Assembly: GCA_016841605.1 (NCBI GenBank)
Contig: JAENYV010000006.1
Span: 1-64,000 of the forward strand
From: Dethiobacter alkaliphilus
GTDB taxonomy: Bacteria; Bacillota; Dethiobacteria; DTU022; UBA8154
Reading direction: 5' to 3'
Length of the DNA stretch: 64,000 nucleotides
The position numbers were made by a program, and so were the translations under genes. How positions within the stretch are numbered: the first letter of the stretch is position 1; each line of letters opens with the position of its first letter. Positions 36,120-43,009 of the stretch are shown piece after piece. The notes under the pieces are model-generated. The model searched no databases. It had not been told where the DNA came from and saw only the letters and a list, made by a program, of their open reading frames with translations.

Positions 36120-37673
36120 TTAAGGAGTAATTGTTACTGTCTGTAAAGTCGAATTCCATTCCACGTTTGCTCCCAGATATTCGCCCGTGTAACGGGCCGG
36201 AATCATTGTTCTCCCGTTTTTAATAACCGGTGAGGTATCCATCTGCCTTTCTTTGCCGTTTAAGGCGGCCAGGGGACTGTCTACCTTAAACAAGATGGTT
36301 GTCCCTACTTTGCGGATCATGACTGTTCTTTGCTTAGGGTTCCATTCCACGTTTGCTCCCAGGGCTTCGGCAATTCCCCGTAGAGGGACCATCAGACGCC
36401 CGTTGGCATCGATAAAGGGGGGTACATCGAAAATGAGGAGATGATTGCCGACCAGGACGGTAATCTGTGCATTGTAGTTCGGGAGAAGATATTTTTTCCT
36501 TTCTTCTTTGAACTGCTGCAGGGCAGGGGCATATTTTGCTTCAATTTCTTCGGGGGAGAGCCGTTGTTCCAGATACTGGCCGATCTTGTTCGTTCCCATG
36601 ACTTTATCAAACATGACAATGGTGTTTCCACTTTTGGGGACCTGGAAATTTCCCAGCCTGAAGGCTAGCGAGAGGGCATAGATACCTGTTTTGGCAGGGT
36701 TAAAGGTGTGATAATCGTCGATACTCAGACGCACCCCTCCTGCCTCCCCCCTTTGTTCGGGTACAAAGGTTACACCGGGAAGGCCGGCCCGGTTAAGAGC
36801 AGCGGCATATTTTACGCCATCGAGCCCTTTTCCCCCGATCCATTTAAACTGGTCGGCCTGGAAAACACCTGTTCCTTCTCCCAATCCGGTAGCCATATAG
36901 CCGAAAACAGACTGCAGATCGGGGATATTGGGAGATGTGGCGATCCAGGGGAGGCCCGTATCCGCATAGATCATGTTTCTTTTATAGCCGTCCATGGGGA
37001 TAACCGTCAGATCAGCGCCAATCTTGCGGTTAAAGAAAAGGGCAAGTTCTCCCACTGTCATGCCGTGGGCTTTCGGGATGTTGTCAATGCCCACAAAGGA
37101 TTTATAGGGATCTTCCAGAACAGGCCCTTCGACGATCATCCCTCCCAGAGGGTTGGGACGGTCCGGCACAATAATCGGTTTATTATATTTTTGCGCGGCG
37201 ATCATGCAATAGTTTAAGGTGGAGATATATGTATAGGTCCGCGCTCCGATATCCTGGATATCGTAAAGAAGAAGGTCCACATTTTTAAACATTTCTTCGG
37301 TGGGCATTCTGGTCGCTCCGTACAGGCTGTACACAGGGATACCCAGTTGCGGATGGAGATATGATTCCACATATTCTCCTGCTTTGGCTTTACCGTCAAT
37401 GCCGTGTTCCGGACCGTAAAGGGCTGCCAGGGTAACTGATTTATTCTCCCAAAGAAGATCGATCGTGCTGATGCCCTGACTGTTTACACCGCTTTGATTG
37501 GTGATCAGTCCTACTCTCTTATCGTTAATAAGGTGGGAATACCGGCTGAACAATACTTCGTTTCCCAGTTTGATGACGGGAACTTCCGAAGCTTGAATCG
37601 GTTCTTGAGCAGGTCCGGAAAAGATTGCGAGCATGAATAGACATAAAACAAGTGCTGCCCTAATTATTTTCAT
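36120..37673 (-). CDS. Secreted NamZ-like (DUF1343) muramidase with stalk domain
   Basis: A 517-residue exported protein. A signal peptide (about residues 1-29, basic start, hydrophobic core, ending IQAS) precedes a DUF1343 domain (about 40-390) with GLITNQSGV, LYGPEHGIDG, YDIQDIGARTYTYI and VPDRPNPLGG. NamZ of B. subtilis, in this family, is an exo-beta-N-acetylmuramidase of cell-wall recycling. The C-terminal ~120 residues hold two copies of the copper-amine-oxidase-N-like stalk motif (MVPLRGIAEALGANVEWN and MIPARYTGEYLGANVEWN), probably for wall attachment. ATG start. Divergent from the ADP-ribosylglycohydrolase gene. Confidence 0.88.
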   Translation of the reverse strand: MKIIRAALVLCLFMLAIFSGPAQEPIQASEVPVIKLGNEVLFSRYSHLINDKRVGLITNQSGVNSQGISTIDLLWENKSVTLAALYGPEHGIDGKAKAGEYVESYLHPQLGIPVYSLYGATRMPTEEMFKNVDLLLYDIQDIGARTYTYISTLNYCMIAAQKYNKPIIVPDRPNPLGGMIVEGPVLEDPYKSFVGIDNIPKAHGMTVGELALFFNRKIGADLTVIPMDGYKRNMIYADTGLPWIATSPNIPDLQSVFGYMATGLGEGTGVFQADQFKWIGGKGLDGVKYAAALNRAGLPGVTFVPEQRGEAGGVRLSIDDYHTFNPAKTGIYALSLAFRLGNFQVPKSGNTIVMFDKVMGTNKIGQYLEQRLSPEEIEAKYAPALQQFKEERKKYLLPNYNAQITVLVGNHLLIFDVPPFIDANGRLMVPLRGIAEALGANVEWNPKQRTVMIRKVGTTILFKVDSPLAALNGKERQMDTSPVIKNGRTMIPARYTGEYLGANVEWNSTLQTVTITP

Positions 37674-38777: not shown

Positions 38778-39311
38778 TTGCAGAATTTGCCGCTTAAAAA
38801 GAGTGGAGATACACAAAAAGGTGAAGAACAGCTGGTTCATGCTTTCAATACATATTATGAAAAGGTATACAATTACTTTTCCTGCCGCATTCATAACCAT
38901 GAACAGGCCCAGGACCTGACTGGAGAAGTATTTTACAAGGTTGCTGCCGCGTGGCCCAGGTATGATCCAGTCAAGGGAGCCGTTTCAACCTGGATTTTTA
39001 ACATAGCCGGGAATCTTCTTAGTGATTACTGGAGAAAAAAAAGACATATTCAGGTTGAGCTAGAGGAAATATCCGACGGTTCCGGAGACTTAGCGGAGCA
39101 TTTGGAGATGGAAGAAAGCAAAAGAATGCTGAGGGAGGCTTTATTAACCCTTTCCGACAGGGAACAGGAGATCCTTTCCCTTAAATACTCGGCAGATCTT
39201 AAAAATACTGAAATTGCTACCCTTACCGGACTTTCCCAGACTAATGTGGGGATAATCCTCTACCGTACCGTGAGAAAACTGCGGGAAAAATTAAAAAAAG
39301 ATCAGGCGTGA
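38778..39311 (+). CDS. Sigma-70 family (ECF-like) RNA polymerase sigma factor
   Basis: A 177-residue sigma factor with region 2 (YYEKVYNYFSCRIHNHEQAQDLTGEVFYKV, then GAVSTWIFNIAGNLLSDYWRKK) and region 4 (LSDREQEILSLKYSADLKNTEIATLTGLS). Regions 1.1 and 3 are missing, as expected for an ECF-type factor. TTG start with GGAGG upstream. The next gene on the strand, 206 bp away, encodes a DUF3298 lipoprotein rather than a recognisable membrane anti-sigma factor. A control role over the downstream accessory genes is inferred only. Confidence 0.87.
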   Translation: MQNLPLKKSGDTQKGEEQLVHAFNTYYEKVYNYFSCRIHNHEQAQDLTGEVFYKVAAAWPRYDPVKGAVSTWIFNIAGNLLSDYWRKKRHIQVELEEISDGSGDLAEHLEMEESKRMLREALLTLSDREQEILSLKYSADLKNTEIATLTGLSQTNVGIILYRTVRKLREKLKKDQA

Positions 39312-39517: not shown

Positions 39518-40846
39518 ATGGGAAGGAAAAAATTTTTTCAAGTCCAAATGCTGTTGGCAATTATTTTGCTTTTTAATCTTATAGTCCCGGGCTGCAGCAC
39601 AAAAGATGCCACAAAAGATGCTGCCGATGCATTGCCGGGACCTTCGAATACGGAACAACTGCCGGAGCCCGGGACAGATACCGCTGCCCCTGTGCAAATA
39701 TCTTACAGGGTTTATACGGAAACCTTTCGGGACGATGACGGCAGTGTTCTCTTTGATTTAAAAATAACCTATCCGGAAATAAAAAATCAGGACAATGACC
39801 GCGGTATTGCTGCCATTAATGAGTATTATGGCATTCAATTTGATCATTACATCAGTACTATTATCTCCGAAGGGTGGGAACGGGCCGAGGCTGATAAAGA
39901 ATTTGCCGAAAGCAGCGGCTCAGAGTTTCATCCACATGCCTATGAATGTTTTCCGCAAATTACTTACAACGGCAGCGGCCTGCTGTCGGTCCTGAACACC
40001 CAATATGAATACACCGGCGGAGCGCATCCTAATTCATTTCGCCGTTCCGAAACATTCGACGTAAAGACCGGCCAAAAACTTGCCCTTAACGATATTTTGG
40101 GGGGCAGCAAAGAGGAAGCTCTTGAAAAGGTTTATCAGACTGTTCTCATGCATATTCAGGAAAAGGAAGGAAAAGACGATTTTTTCTTTTTTGAAAACTA
40201 CCGGGATGATCTGCGGGAGTATTATGCGGAGGACGATTTTGTGCTGACGGAAAACAGCATTATGTTTTATTACCAGCTTTATGCCATTGCACCTTATGCC
40301 GCAGGTTTTCCGGAGTTTGAACTTTCCTTTGACAAAGCGGGCCCCCTGGCCCTGAACATACCGGCGTTGCCTGCAAATCAGCCGGAAAGGGAACTGTATG
40401 ACCTCGCAGGAAAGCTCATTGATCGCAACAAGCAGGCTTTTTATGAAATCTTTGGCCTCTCCATGCTCCATATGGAGATTCCCGATAACCGTGCCGACGA
40501 AGAGGTCTTGTTCCCGGTAAAAGATGAGCGCTTCACAACCTTTTCCGAACTTGACGCCTTTGTACGCAGCACATATATAAAGAGTGAAGCCGACGCTTTG
40601 CTGAGCAATGGCCGTTATCACAATATTGAAGGAAAGTTGTATGGTGATTTGAGCAAAGACGGGGGCATGGGGTATTATGTTGACTGGAACGACTATTGTT
40701 ATGATATGGTAGATATCAGCGAAACATCAGCGACACTGAATCTTTACACAGTTGAAGATTCCCCGGCAGGGACAAAAGATTTTAGCGTTACCGTAAAAAT
40801 GCTCAAAGAAAACGGTACCTGGCTGCTTGAAAAAATGTTCTATTAA
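39518..40846 (+). CDS. Lipoprotein with DUF4163/DUF3298 (RsiV-like) domains
   Basis: A 442-residue lipoprotein: signal peptide with lipobox LIVPGC (lipidated Cys near residue 26), then a DUF4163-like region (about 55-140) and a DUF3298 region (about 150-260) with YTGGAHPN and KTGQKLALNDIL. The last ~150 residues form a further domain of unknown kind. DUF3298 is the lysozyme-binding part of the anti-sigma factor RsiV, but here no cytoplasmic sigma-binding tail or membrane helix exists beyond the lipid anchor. ATG start with GGGGGAAAGG upstream. Downstream of a sigma factor gene, so it may report on wall stress. Confidence 0.78.
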   Translation: MGRKKFFQVQMLLAIILLFNLIVPGCSTKDATKDAADALPGPSNTEQLPEPGTDTAAPVQISYRVYTETFRDDDGSVLFDLKITYPEIKNQDNDRGIAAINEYYGIQFDHYISTIISEGWERAEADKEFAESSGSEFHPHAYECFPQITYNGSGLLSVLNTQYEYTGGAHPNSFRRSETFDVKTGQKLALNDILGGSKEEALEKVYQTVLMHIQEKEGKDDFFFFENYRDDLREYYAEDDFVLTENSIMFYYQLYAIAPYAAGFPEFELSFDKAGPLALNIPALPANQPERELYDLAGKLIDRNKQAFYEIFGLSMLHMEIPDNRADEEVLFPVKDERFTTFSELDAFVRSTYIKSEADALLSNGRYHNIEGKLYGDLSKDGGMGYYVDWNDYCYDMVDISETSATLNLYTVEDSPAGTKDFSVTVKMLKENGTWLLEKMFY

Positions 40847-40856
40847 GGATGAAAGT

Positions 40857-41189
40857 ATGTATAAAGATAATGAAATGAATTCCCAAAGTAAAGAAAAGAA
40901 AAGGACGGACGATAAAAAGCCCGCGGAACCAACAGGAATTCTGGATGCCTTACATGCCCTGCCCGACAATGATAAGCGGAAGCATCATTGTAAGAAGATG
41001 CTGGAGATATACAGGGAGGCATCTAACCGGCAGGAAATGGACGCGGTCGAGCTGGAAGACGGTGAACTGGAGCTAACGGCAGCAGCCGGGGGGAACAGGA
41101 CGGAATTGATCTTGAGGTGCCCCTATTGCGGCAGAGAATTTCCGTCCGATAGACTTGAAGAACACATGCGTTCTGTCCACGGTAACTAA
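40857..41189 (+). CDS. Small protein with C-terminal C2H2 zinc finger
   Basis: A 110-residue, highly charged protein whose C-terminus has a zinc-finger pattern CPYCGREFPSDRLEEHMRSVH: cysteines C88 and C91, histidines H103 and H108 (C-x2-C-x11-H-x4-H). The first ~80 residues are lysine/glutamate-rich with no known domain. ATG 40857 follows AAGGATG. It lies 10 bp after the lipoprotein gene and 23 bp before the RiPP-like precursor, suggesting one transcript. It may be a regulator or adaptor; nothing proves this. Confidence 0.6.
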   Translation: MYKDNEMNSQSKEKKRTDDKKPAEPTGILDALHALPDNDKRKHHCKKMLEIYREASNRQEMDAVELEDGELELTAAAGGNRTELILRCPYCGREFPSDRLEEHMRSVHGN

Positions 41190-41212: not shown

Positions 41213-41584
41213 ATGACACTTAAAGAATTTATGGAAAAAAATGACATTGACTTGCTGGAAAAAATGAGACGTTGCAGAACCTTGCAGGATTTTGAGGCAT
41301 TTGCCGAAGAAAACGGTATCAAGCCGGATGCGGAGGAAATGGAGAAGATCTCCGCGTTGCTGCAAACGGAATTGCTGCATGATGATGATCTTGCCAATGT
41401 CGCCGGCGGATTTTGGCAAGATTGGACATGTCCGAAAATGTATGTTCCTTTATTTTGTGAATCGGCAAATTTATTTAAGGGTTGTGCTAATTTTAGAATA
41501 ATGGATTTTGGAGGAGCTACGGTAATAAAATACTGTACACTGCATGGATGGGAATTCGAAGCCAATAAATCACCAAAAATTTAA
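41213..41584 (+). CDS. Nif11-like RiPP precursor peptide
   Basis: A 123-residue peptide. Residues 1-66 form a Nif11-type leader: helical start (MTLKEFMEKN), acidic mid part, and a double-glycine cleavage motif LANVAGG ending at residue 66. The predicted core, residues 67-123, has four cysteines (73, 82, 91, 108) and several aromatic residues, as in precursors of modified peptides of the Nif11/NHLP class. A leader Cys (21) is extra. ATG start with AGGAGG upstream. No radical-SAM, lanthionine or cyclodehydratase enzyme and no C39-peptidase ABC transporter is near, so maturation enzymes must lie elsewhere, or the peptide is an orphan. It could also be an unmodified, secreted Nif11 protein. Confidence 0.7.
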   Translation: MTLKEFMEKNDIDLLEKMRRCRTLQDFEAFAEENGIKPDAEEMEKISALLQTELLHDDDLANVAGGFWQDWTCPKMYVPLFCESANLFKGCANFRIMDFGGATVIKYCTLHGWEFEANKSPKI

Positions 41585-41617
41585 GTTATATGGTAATAAG
41601 AACTAGCGGAGGCCGTT

Positions 41618-43009
41618 ATGATCGATCTTGTCATTATGGGTATTTATATTGTTACTGTTCTTGCCGTTGGCCTGTACTCCTCCAAAGGATTAAAAAGTGT
41701 TAAAGACTTTTCCATTTCCAATCGGAAATACGGAGTTTTTGTCATTATGGCCACCCTTTCCGCCTCCTTTATCGGAGGCGGTTTTTCCACCGGCAATGCC
41801 TCTAATGTGTATTCCGTCGGTATCGGCTATATTGCCGCTCTCTTCGGATTTTCGCTGGCGCAAATACTTATCGGCACTTTTATCGCTCCGAAAATCGGCC
41901 GTTTTCATGATGTTTACTCGGTGGGAGGCATAATGGGCGAGGCATACGGTAAGAAGGCCCAGATTATTACGGGGCTGCTATCGGTGCTTGTCTGTGCCGG
42001 AATCCTCGGTGCGCAAGTGGCGGCAATCGGTTATGTTGTCCAGGTTTTTTTAGGCTTTCCTTATTATACCGGCATCCTTTTCGGCTGCCTGGTAGTGGTG
42101 TTTTATTCCACTTTTGGCGGAATGAGGGCGGTTATTCTGACGGATGTGCTCCAGTTCATTATTTTAAGTATTGGTATGCCCGTATTGGTAGTATTTGGTG
42201 TTTTGCAAAACGGTGGTTTGCAAAGTTTTATCGTCAATATTCCGGCGCAAAATTTGAATATTTTGAACAGTATGACGCCGGCAGCTTTTTCTTCCCTGTT
42301 TCTGACCTTTCTGATTGGAGAAACACTTGTCCCCCCCTATGTGCAGAGACTGCTGATCGGCAAAAACCCTGCCGTTACGGCAAAAGCCACAGTTATCAGC
42401 GGCCTGTACTCCATCCCTTATTTTATTATCAGCGGTCTGGTCGGCCTTATTGCCCTGGCGTCGGGTTACCGCGGAGAGGCCGGGTTGGTTATGCCCACGC
42501 TGGTTAAATCCGTTTTGCCTGTCGGCATTACCGGTCTCGTTATCTCGGGCATGCTTTCTATTTATATGTCTTCGGCCGACTCATTTCTTAACAGTTCTTC
42601 CATTGGGCTGGTGGCGGATACAATCTTGCCACTTTCAAAAAAAGAAATATCCGAGCCGAAAAAACTTTTCCTAGCCCGTCTGGTTAACCTGCTCACCGGT
42701 ATCCTTGCCCTTGTTTTTGCCATGATCGGCTCCAATGCCCTGGAAATTCTTACTTATGCGTATAATTTCTGGTGCCCCATGATCCTGGTCCCGCTGGCCG
42801 CGGCTCTTTTGGGGGTCAAAGCGGGACCAAAAGCCTTCTTTCTTTCATTCTGTGCCGGTTTTAGCGGCACTATTTTGTGGAAGATCATCCTGGGCAATCC
42901 CTTCAACCTTGACGGGATGATTATCGGCTTTGTCGTGAGCCTTATCGCATTTATTGTTGCAAAATTTCTTCAGATGAAAGTGCCTGCCGGGCATGTTGCA
43001 CTAAAATAA
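41618..43009 (+). CDS. Sodium:solute symporter family protein
   Basis: A 463-residue membrane protein with about twelve to thirteen hydrophobic segments in the SSS family layout. Typical features are the N-terminal SISNRKYGVFVIMATLSASF, glycine-rich FIGGGFSTGNASNVYSVG, and a SSADSFLNSSS segment where the second sodium site usually lies. It would import a small solute with sodium; the solute is not readable. ATG start with CGGAGG upstream, 33 bp after the RiPP precursor gene. Confidence 0.87.
   Translation: MIDLVIMGIYIVTVLAVGLYSSKGLKSVKDFSISNRKYGVFVIMATLSASFIGGGFSTGNASNVYSVGIGYIAALFGFSLAQILIGTFIAPKIGRFHDVYSVGGIMGEAYGKKAQIITGLLSVLVCAGILGAQVAAIGYVVQVFLGFPYYTGILFGCLVVVFYSTFGGMRAVILTDVLQFIILSIGMPVLVVFGVLQNGGLQSFIVNIPAQNLNILNSMTPAAFSSLFLTFLIGETLVPPYVQRLLIGKNPAVTAKATVISGLYSIPYFIISGLVGLIALASGYRGEAGLVMPTLVKSVLPVGITGLVISGMLSIYMSSADSFLNSSSIGLVADTILPLSKKEISEPKKLFLARLVNLLTGILALVFAMIGSNALEILTYAYNFWCPMILVPLAAALLGVKAGPKAFFLSFCAGFSGTILWKIILGNPFNLDGMIIGFVVSLIAFIVAKFLQMKVPAGHVALK

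Follow-up and report, generated by a model that had tools for sequence, protein, structure and literature searches.

Genomic context of the precursor gene

The window analysed here, a 64,000-nucleotide stretch of the Dethiobacter alkaliphilus genome (4.07 Mb in 36 contigs) on contig C19, carries an intact forward-strand open reading frame at 41213-41584, which encodes 123 amino acids followed by a stop codon and is preceded by a strong ribosome-binding site, with GAGGAGG ahead of the ATG. Upstream on the same strand lie genes for an ECF sigma factor (38778..39311; TIGR02937, 107.5 bits, over the cut-off), which is a possible regulator, for a PdaC/DUF3298 lipoprotein (39518..40846; Pfam matches) and for a small C2H2-type zinc-finger protein (40857..41189; zf-C2HC_2, 28.8 bits against a cut-off of 27). 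Directly downstream, a profile match identifies a sodium:solute symporter (41618-43009). The TIGR and Pfam matches bear out the neighbours named in the earlier note on this DNA, a sigma factor/lipoprotein pair, a C2H2 zinc finger and a sodium symporter. The lipoprotein is found in none of the 22 other genomes of the family.

The sigma factor gene is separated from the lipoprotein gene by 206 bp. Because the gaps that follow are only 10 bp (lipoprotein to zinc finger), 23 bp (zinc finger to precursor) and 33 bp (precursor to symporter), and no terminator-like site is listed in any of them, these four genes may form a single transcript; for the lipoprotein gene, co-transcription is probable. The window encodes no C39 protein, and inspection of its open reading frames reveals no modifying enzyme, which agrees with the earlier description of the locus as an orphan. 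Elsewhere in the window, 36120-37673 encodes a fusion of a NamZ exo-beta-N-acetylmuramidase with an N-terminal-type domain of copper amine oxidase.

A Nif11-type leader is joined to a divergent core

Translation of the frame gives a 66-residue leader (41213..41410) that ends in LANVAGG, a GG-type cleavage motif, and a 57-residue core (residues 67-123; 41411..41581) with cysteines at 73, 82, 91 and 108; a fifth cysteine, at position 21, lies in the leader. Coordinates, strand and translation all agree with what had been read from the sequence earlier. The assignment of the leader as Nif11-like has also held up, given that residues 3-66 match TIGR03798 with 38.5 bits against a curated cut-off of 32.3 (E 1e-9), with the Pfam Nif11 profile staying below its threshold (E 0.09). 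A match to Pfam GP17 (E 0.007) was under its cut-off and was treated as chance. In addition, the leader has G-1, G-2, A-3, V-4, L-7 and L-12, which fits the C39 recognition motif mapped for LahT150 (PMC6363468).

The core differs in composition and in codon usage from the leader to which it is attached. It contains five Ser/Thr, four Cys and eleven aromatic residues, and a Thr precedes Cys73 as well as Cys108. Within the leader, G or C occupies the third codon position in 34 of 66 codons, which is ordinary (32 expected), whereas the core reaches only 13 of 57 (28 expected), a deviation not equalled in any of 265 stretches of the same length taken from window genes. This seam coincides with the GG. 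It fits a core that evolved or was acquired apart from the leader, and relaxed constraint would also produce a low value of this kind. The low-GC stretch runs from 41411 to 41600, covering the core and the gap before the symporter gene, in a window of 44.9% GC.

No CxxC pair, zinc-finger pattern or Pfam match was found in the core. AlphaFold2, run on two sequences, places one helix and four strands in it at low confidence (pLDDT about 47-68), and this fold has no match to PDB or viral structures at E 0.001. For the core of the related precursor on contig C3, described below, structure prediction gave no usable model (pLDDT in the 20s-30s).

The genome encodes a single C39 exporter

A genome-wide search for the C39 peptidase (PF03412) returned one copy, on contig C3. 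There it belongs to a cassette of an HlyD-like protein, a C39-ABC transporter and a second ABC transporter, which together form a complete NHLM/NHLP system (TIGR03794, 206.2 bits against a cut-off of 156.2; TIGR03796, 972.8 against 853.3; TIGR03797, 746.2 against 709.4). By reading of the sequence, the Gln, Cys, His and Asp motifs of the C39 domain are present and the exporter looks intact. Two GG-leader peptides adjoin the cassette, and contig C11 encodes two more. On contig C30, a LanM of 1089 aa (TIGR03897, 780.6 bits) has its own Nif11 precursor alongside (L012 9373-13098); the stretch around it contains no C39 transporter, and this LanM presumably relies on the C3 exporter. A profile built from the six GG precursors of the genome, that of the window included, matches exactly those six places genome-wide, as may be expected of a profile made from them. 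The genome search that the earlier note had proposed recovers a C39 exporter on C3, a LanM on C30 and further precursors on C3, C30 and C11; the sole SPASM radical SAM protein is the SCIFF maturase (498.6 bits against 425). No YcaO protein is encoded in the genome, and no maturase is obvious at the C3 or C11 loci.

One of the C3 precursors (L011 8824-9240), whose gene precedes that of the peptidase by 1.5 kb, begins with the same MTLKEFMEK as the window precursor. The two leaders are closely related (z 16.5-17.3 against shuffles), whereas the window leader bears only weak likeness to that of the LanM-linked precursor on C30 (z 3.2). Of the eight conserved codons that follow the start, four show silent differences between the window and C3 genes, indicating that MTLKEFMEK is kept at the protein level. 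Between their cores there is no significant similarity (p 0.07-0.12), so that the two genes form a paralogue pair with a conserved leader and a divergent core. A C-terminal pattern seemingly common to both cores (C..GA...YC...G..WE) was not significant and was dropped. The earlier note had held that a missing profile match, together with a core conserved as a folded domain, would speak against a precursor; what is found instead is a TIGR03798 match and this divergence of the cores.

Among the open reading frames listed for exporter loci of two different genera, similar amino-acid-binding-type lipoproteins, alike by eye, immediately follow the NHLM exporter (L011 15126-16277 and L043 187-1317). 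This lipoprotein is possibly a conserved companion of NHLM loci.

Distribution of related precursors

Homologues of the whole precursor were found neither in the 22 other genomes of the family nor, by pattern scan, in 84,980 named genomes, nor in plasmids or viral contigs. The 97 other genomes of the class likewise held none, with one weak match that covers the leader only and lacks the GG. Within a phylum sample of 398 genomes, seven other genomes gave matches mainly over the leader, and the cores were unrelated wherever they were read. A C39 domain and a precursor of this kind each occur in one of the 23 family genomes, the same one, which is consistent with a link between the two but amounts to a single co-occurrence.

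Two observations were made in other genomes. In G404 (L046 10900-11487; L017 1147-1734), a Nif11-type leader with LTGEELDAVAGG at its end is followed by a core that is about 120 residues long and resembles a folded domain more than a short peptide. In G038 (L043) and G039 (L045), pattern scans detected no GG-leader peptide alongside the NHLM exporter genes, as if the precursors of these exporters lay elsewhere in those genomes.

Zinc-finger-like peptides with double-glycine leaders

The zinc-finger protein encoded next to the window precursor contains ELTAAAGG, and its finger (CPYCGREF...H....H) starts nine residues further on. Among the ordinary proteins of the window, 16,313 aa in all, the pattern [DE]L..[VILMA].GG occurs once, and the neighbour may thus be a second GG-leader peptide, as judged from its sequence. 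However, its residues at -12 (Asp) and -4 (Ala) are not those favoured by C39, and its leader shows no clear likeness to any other leader compared. When the long stretches examined were scanned for a GG followed by CxxC, this neighbour was the only protein recovered beyond the known GG peptides, a result that is suggestive only, as the pattern was picked after these peptides had been viewed.

Zinc-finger-like cores of the CxxC or C2H2 kind occur in several GG peptides, both in the D. alkaliphilus genome and in a Syntrophomonadaceae relative. The NHLM locus of G055, apparently a Syntrophomonadaceae MAG and of the same order, encodes a Nif11 precursor whose core contains CNCC plus two GG peptides. 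In one of these two (L044 10278-10502), the GG leader LSDNNLEEVTGG is followed shortly by a C2H2-like pattern (zf-C2H2_4, 19.4 bits, under the cut-off of 27). The core of the second is related to the core of a D. alkaliphilus peptide from C11 (E 5e-6 when only this pair is compared). These cases raise the tentative idea that some Syntrophomonadales export unmodified, zinc-finger-like GG-leader mini-proteins via NHLM and that the window encodes a co-transcribed pair of such cargo. We regard this as doubtful, though worth stating. If true, it would define a class of exported metal-binding peptides that use a RiPP-type exporter without RiPP modification.

Discussion

Our analysis indicates that the window gene encodes a double-glycine Nif11-type precursor, which is probably exported in trans by the NHLM/NHLP exporter of C3 and whose core is probably not lanthionine-modified. 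This proposal builds on the leader family, the cleavage motif, the presence of a single intact-looking exporter and the close leader relative beside that exporter. The C39 exporter of C3 would recognise the window leader in trans and cut the precursor between Gly66 and Phe67, after which the 57-residue, four-Cys core would be secreted via the C3 cassette. Once outside, the core would probably function as a small peptide that is stabilised by its cysteines or binds metal, without lanthionine. The link between precursor and exporter spans separate contigs and is one that we infer from the leader sequences. There is precedent for such promiscuity, as the C39 domain of LahT150 cuts varied, unrelated Nif11 leaders, for which the last 13 leader residues are enough and positions -4, -7 and -12 matter (PMC6363468).

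Modification by the C30 LanM was considered as an alternative to direct export. Here the window gene would encode a lanthipeptide precursor that is modified in trans by this enzyme before it leaves the cell via the C3 cassette, in the manner of the prochlorosins. Serving remote precursors with one LanM has precedent (PMC10783134), the C30 enzyme has a Nif11 precursor of its own but no C39 transporter close by, and the Thr before Cys73 and before Cys108 would suit it. However, the window leader is far nearer to the exporter-linked precursor than to the LanM-linked one, and the core has five Ser/Thr for four Cys along with many aromatic residues. In view of this distant leader and of the low Ser/Thr content of the core, we favour the absence of lanthionine modification and consider this route unlikely.

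The MTLKEFMEK start poses a separate question. Since the last 13 leader residues suffice for a C39 peptidase, the conservation of this N-terminus suggests that another partner also binds the leader, possibly a modifying enzyme. A dedicated enzyme that belongs to another class and is either unlinked or not recognised as such might accordingly act on both the window and C3 precursors, and the identity of their N-termini under protein-level constraint, which exceeds what the peptidase requires, is what such an enzyme would predict. Against this stand the absence of YcaO from the genome, the SCIFF maturase as its only SPASM radical SAM protein and the lack of an obvious maturase at the C3 and C11 loci, in a search that covered these two enzyme classes and these loci. 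We therefore judge a dedicated enzyme to be a rather remote prospect. Least probable of all is an intracellular Nif11-domain protein or a decaying, non-exported gene with an incidental or relict GG, which would account for a core that diverges sharply in composition from its leader and has no homologue in the genomes searched, but sits poorly with an intact frame, a good ribosome site, a fully matched C39 motif and an exporter encoded in the same genome.

Systems already described offer several close parallels. The N11P (TIGR03798)/NHLM (TIGR03794/03796/03797) systems (Haft et al. 2010, PMC2887384) share the leader family, the VAGG end and the exporter family with D. alkaliphilus; they likewise have several variable-core precursors per genome alongside NHLM transporters, and some members have no known modifying enzyme. 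The window precursor differs from them in lying away from its exporter and in having a long, aromatic, Ser/Thr-poor core. Prochlorosins and synechococsins (ProcM, SyncM; PMC10783134) also use Nif11 leaders whose genes are scattered, distant from one shared machinery, although their precursors number dozens compared with six GG precursors here, the window leader is not close to the LanM-linked one, and a modified window core is hypothetical. In the LahT/LahA system of Lachnospiraceae C6A11 (PMC6363468), a C39 transporter cuts diverse Nif11 leaders at GG and the recognition residues agree with ours, but LahT, which comes from another organism, is not the same protein and the LahA precursors cluster with their transporter. 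Lastly, the Eggerthella lenta-type Nif11/NHLP clusters (71:50 to 71:59; PMC4289311) have similar leader and core lengths, and the 57-residue core falls within the 14-59 residues published for Nif11 cores of anaerobes (PMC4289311). Unlike the locus in the window, those clusters hold the transporter and putative modifying genes together.

The precursor, its exporter type and its scattered arrangement are therefore of already known sorts. The earlier note had raised a new, minimal or split RiPP system, and of these the split holds, with the exporter on C3 and a LanM on C30. A new or minimal system is not supported, because the cassette is a standard NHLM/NHLP one and scattered Nif11 precursors are known (PMC10783134, PMC2887384). 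The window precursor is instead a member of the scattered cargo set of a known secretion system, and no self-contained system in its own right. More broadly, leader similarity can assign an apparently orphan precursor to a remote exporter, and missing neighbours therefore need not mean a new system. The zinc-finger-like cargo, read from sequence patterns, is tentatively the sole part that could be new. If such cores prove to be genuine cargo, the substrates of NHLM exporters would include, besides modified peptides, folded mini-proteins that bind metal, which would inform the role of those Nif11 precursors that occur without modifying enzymes.
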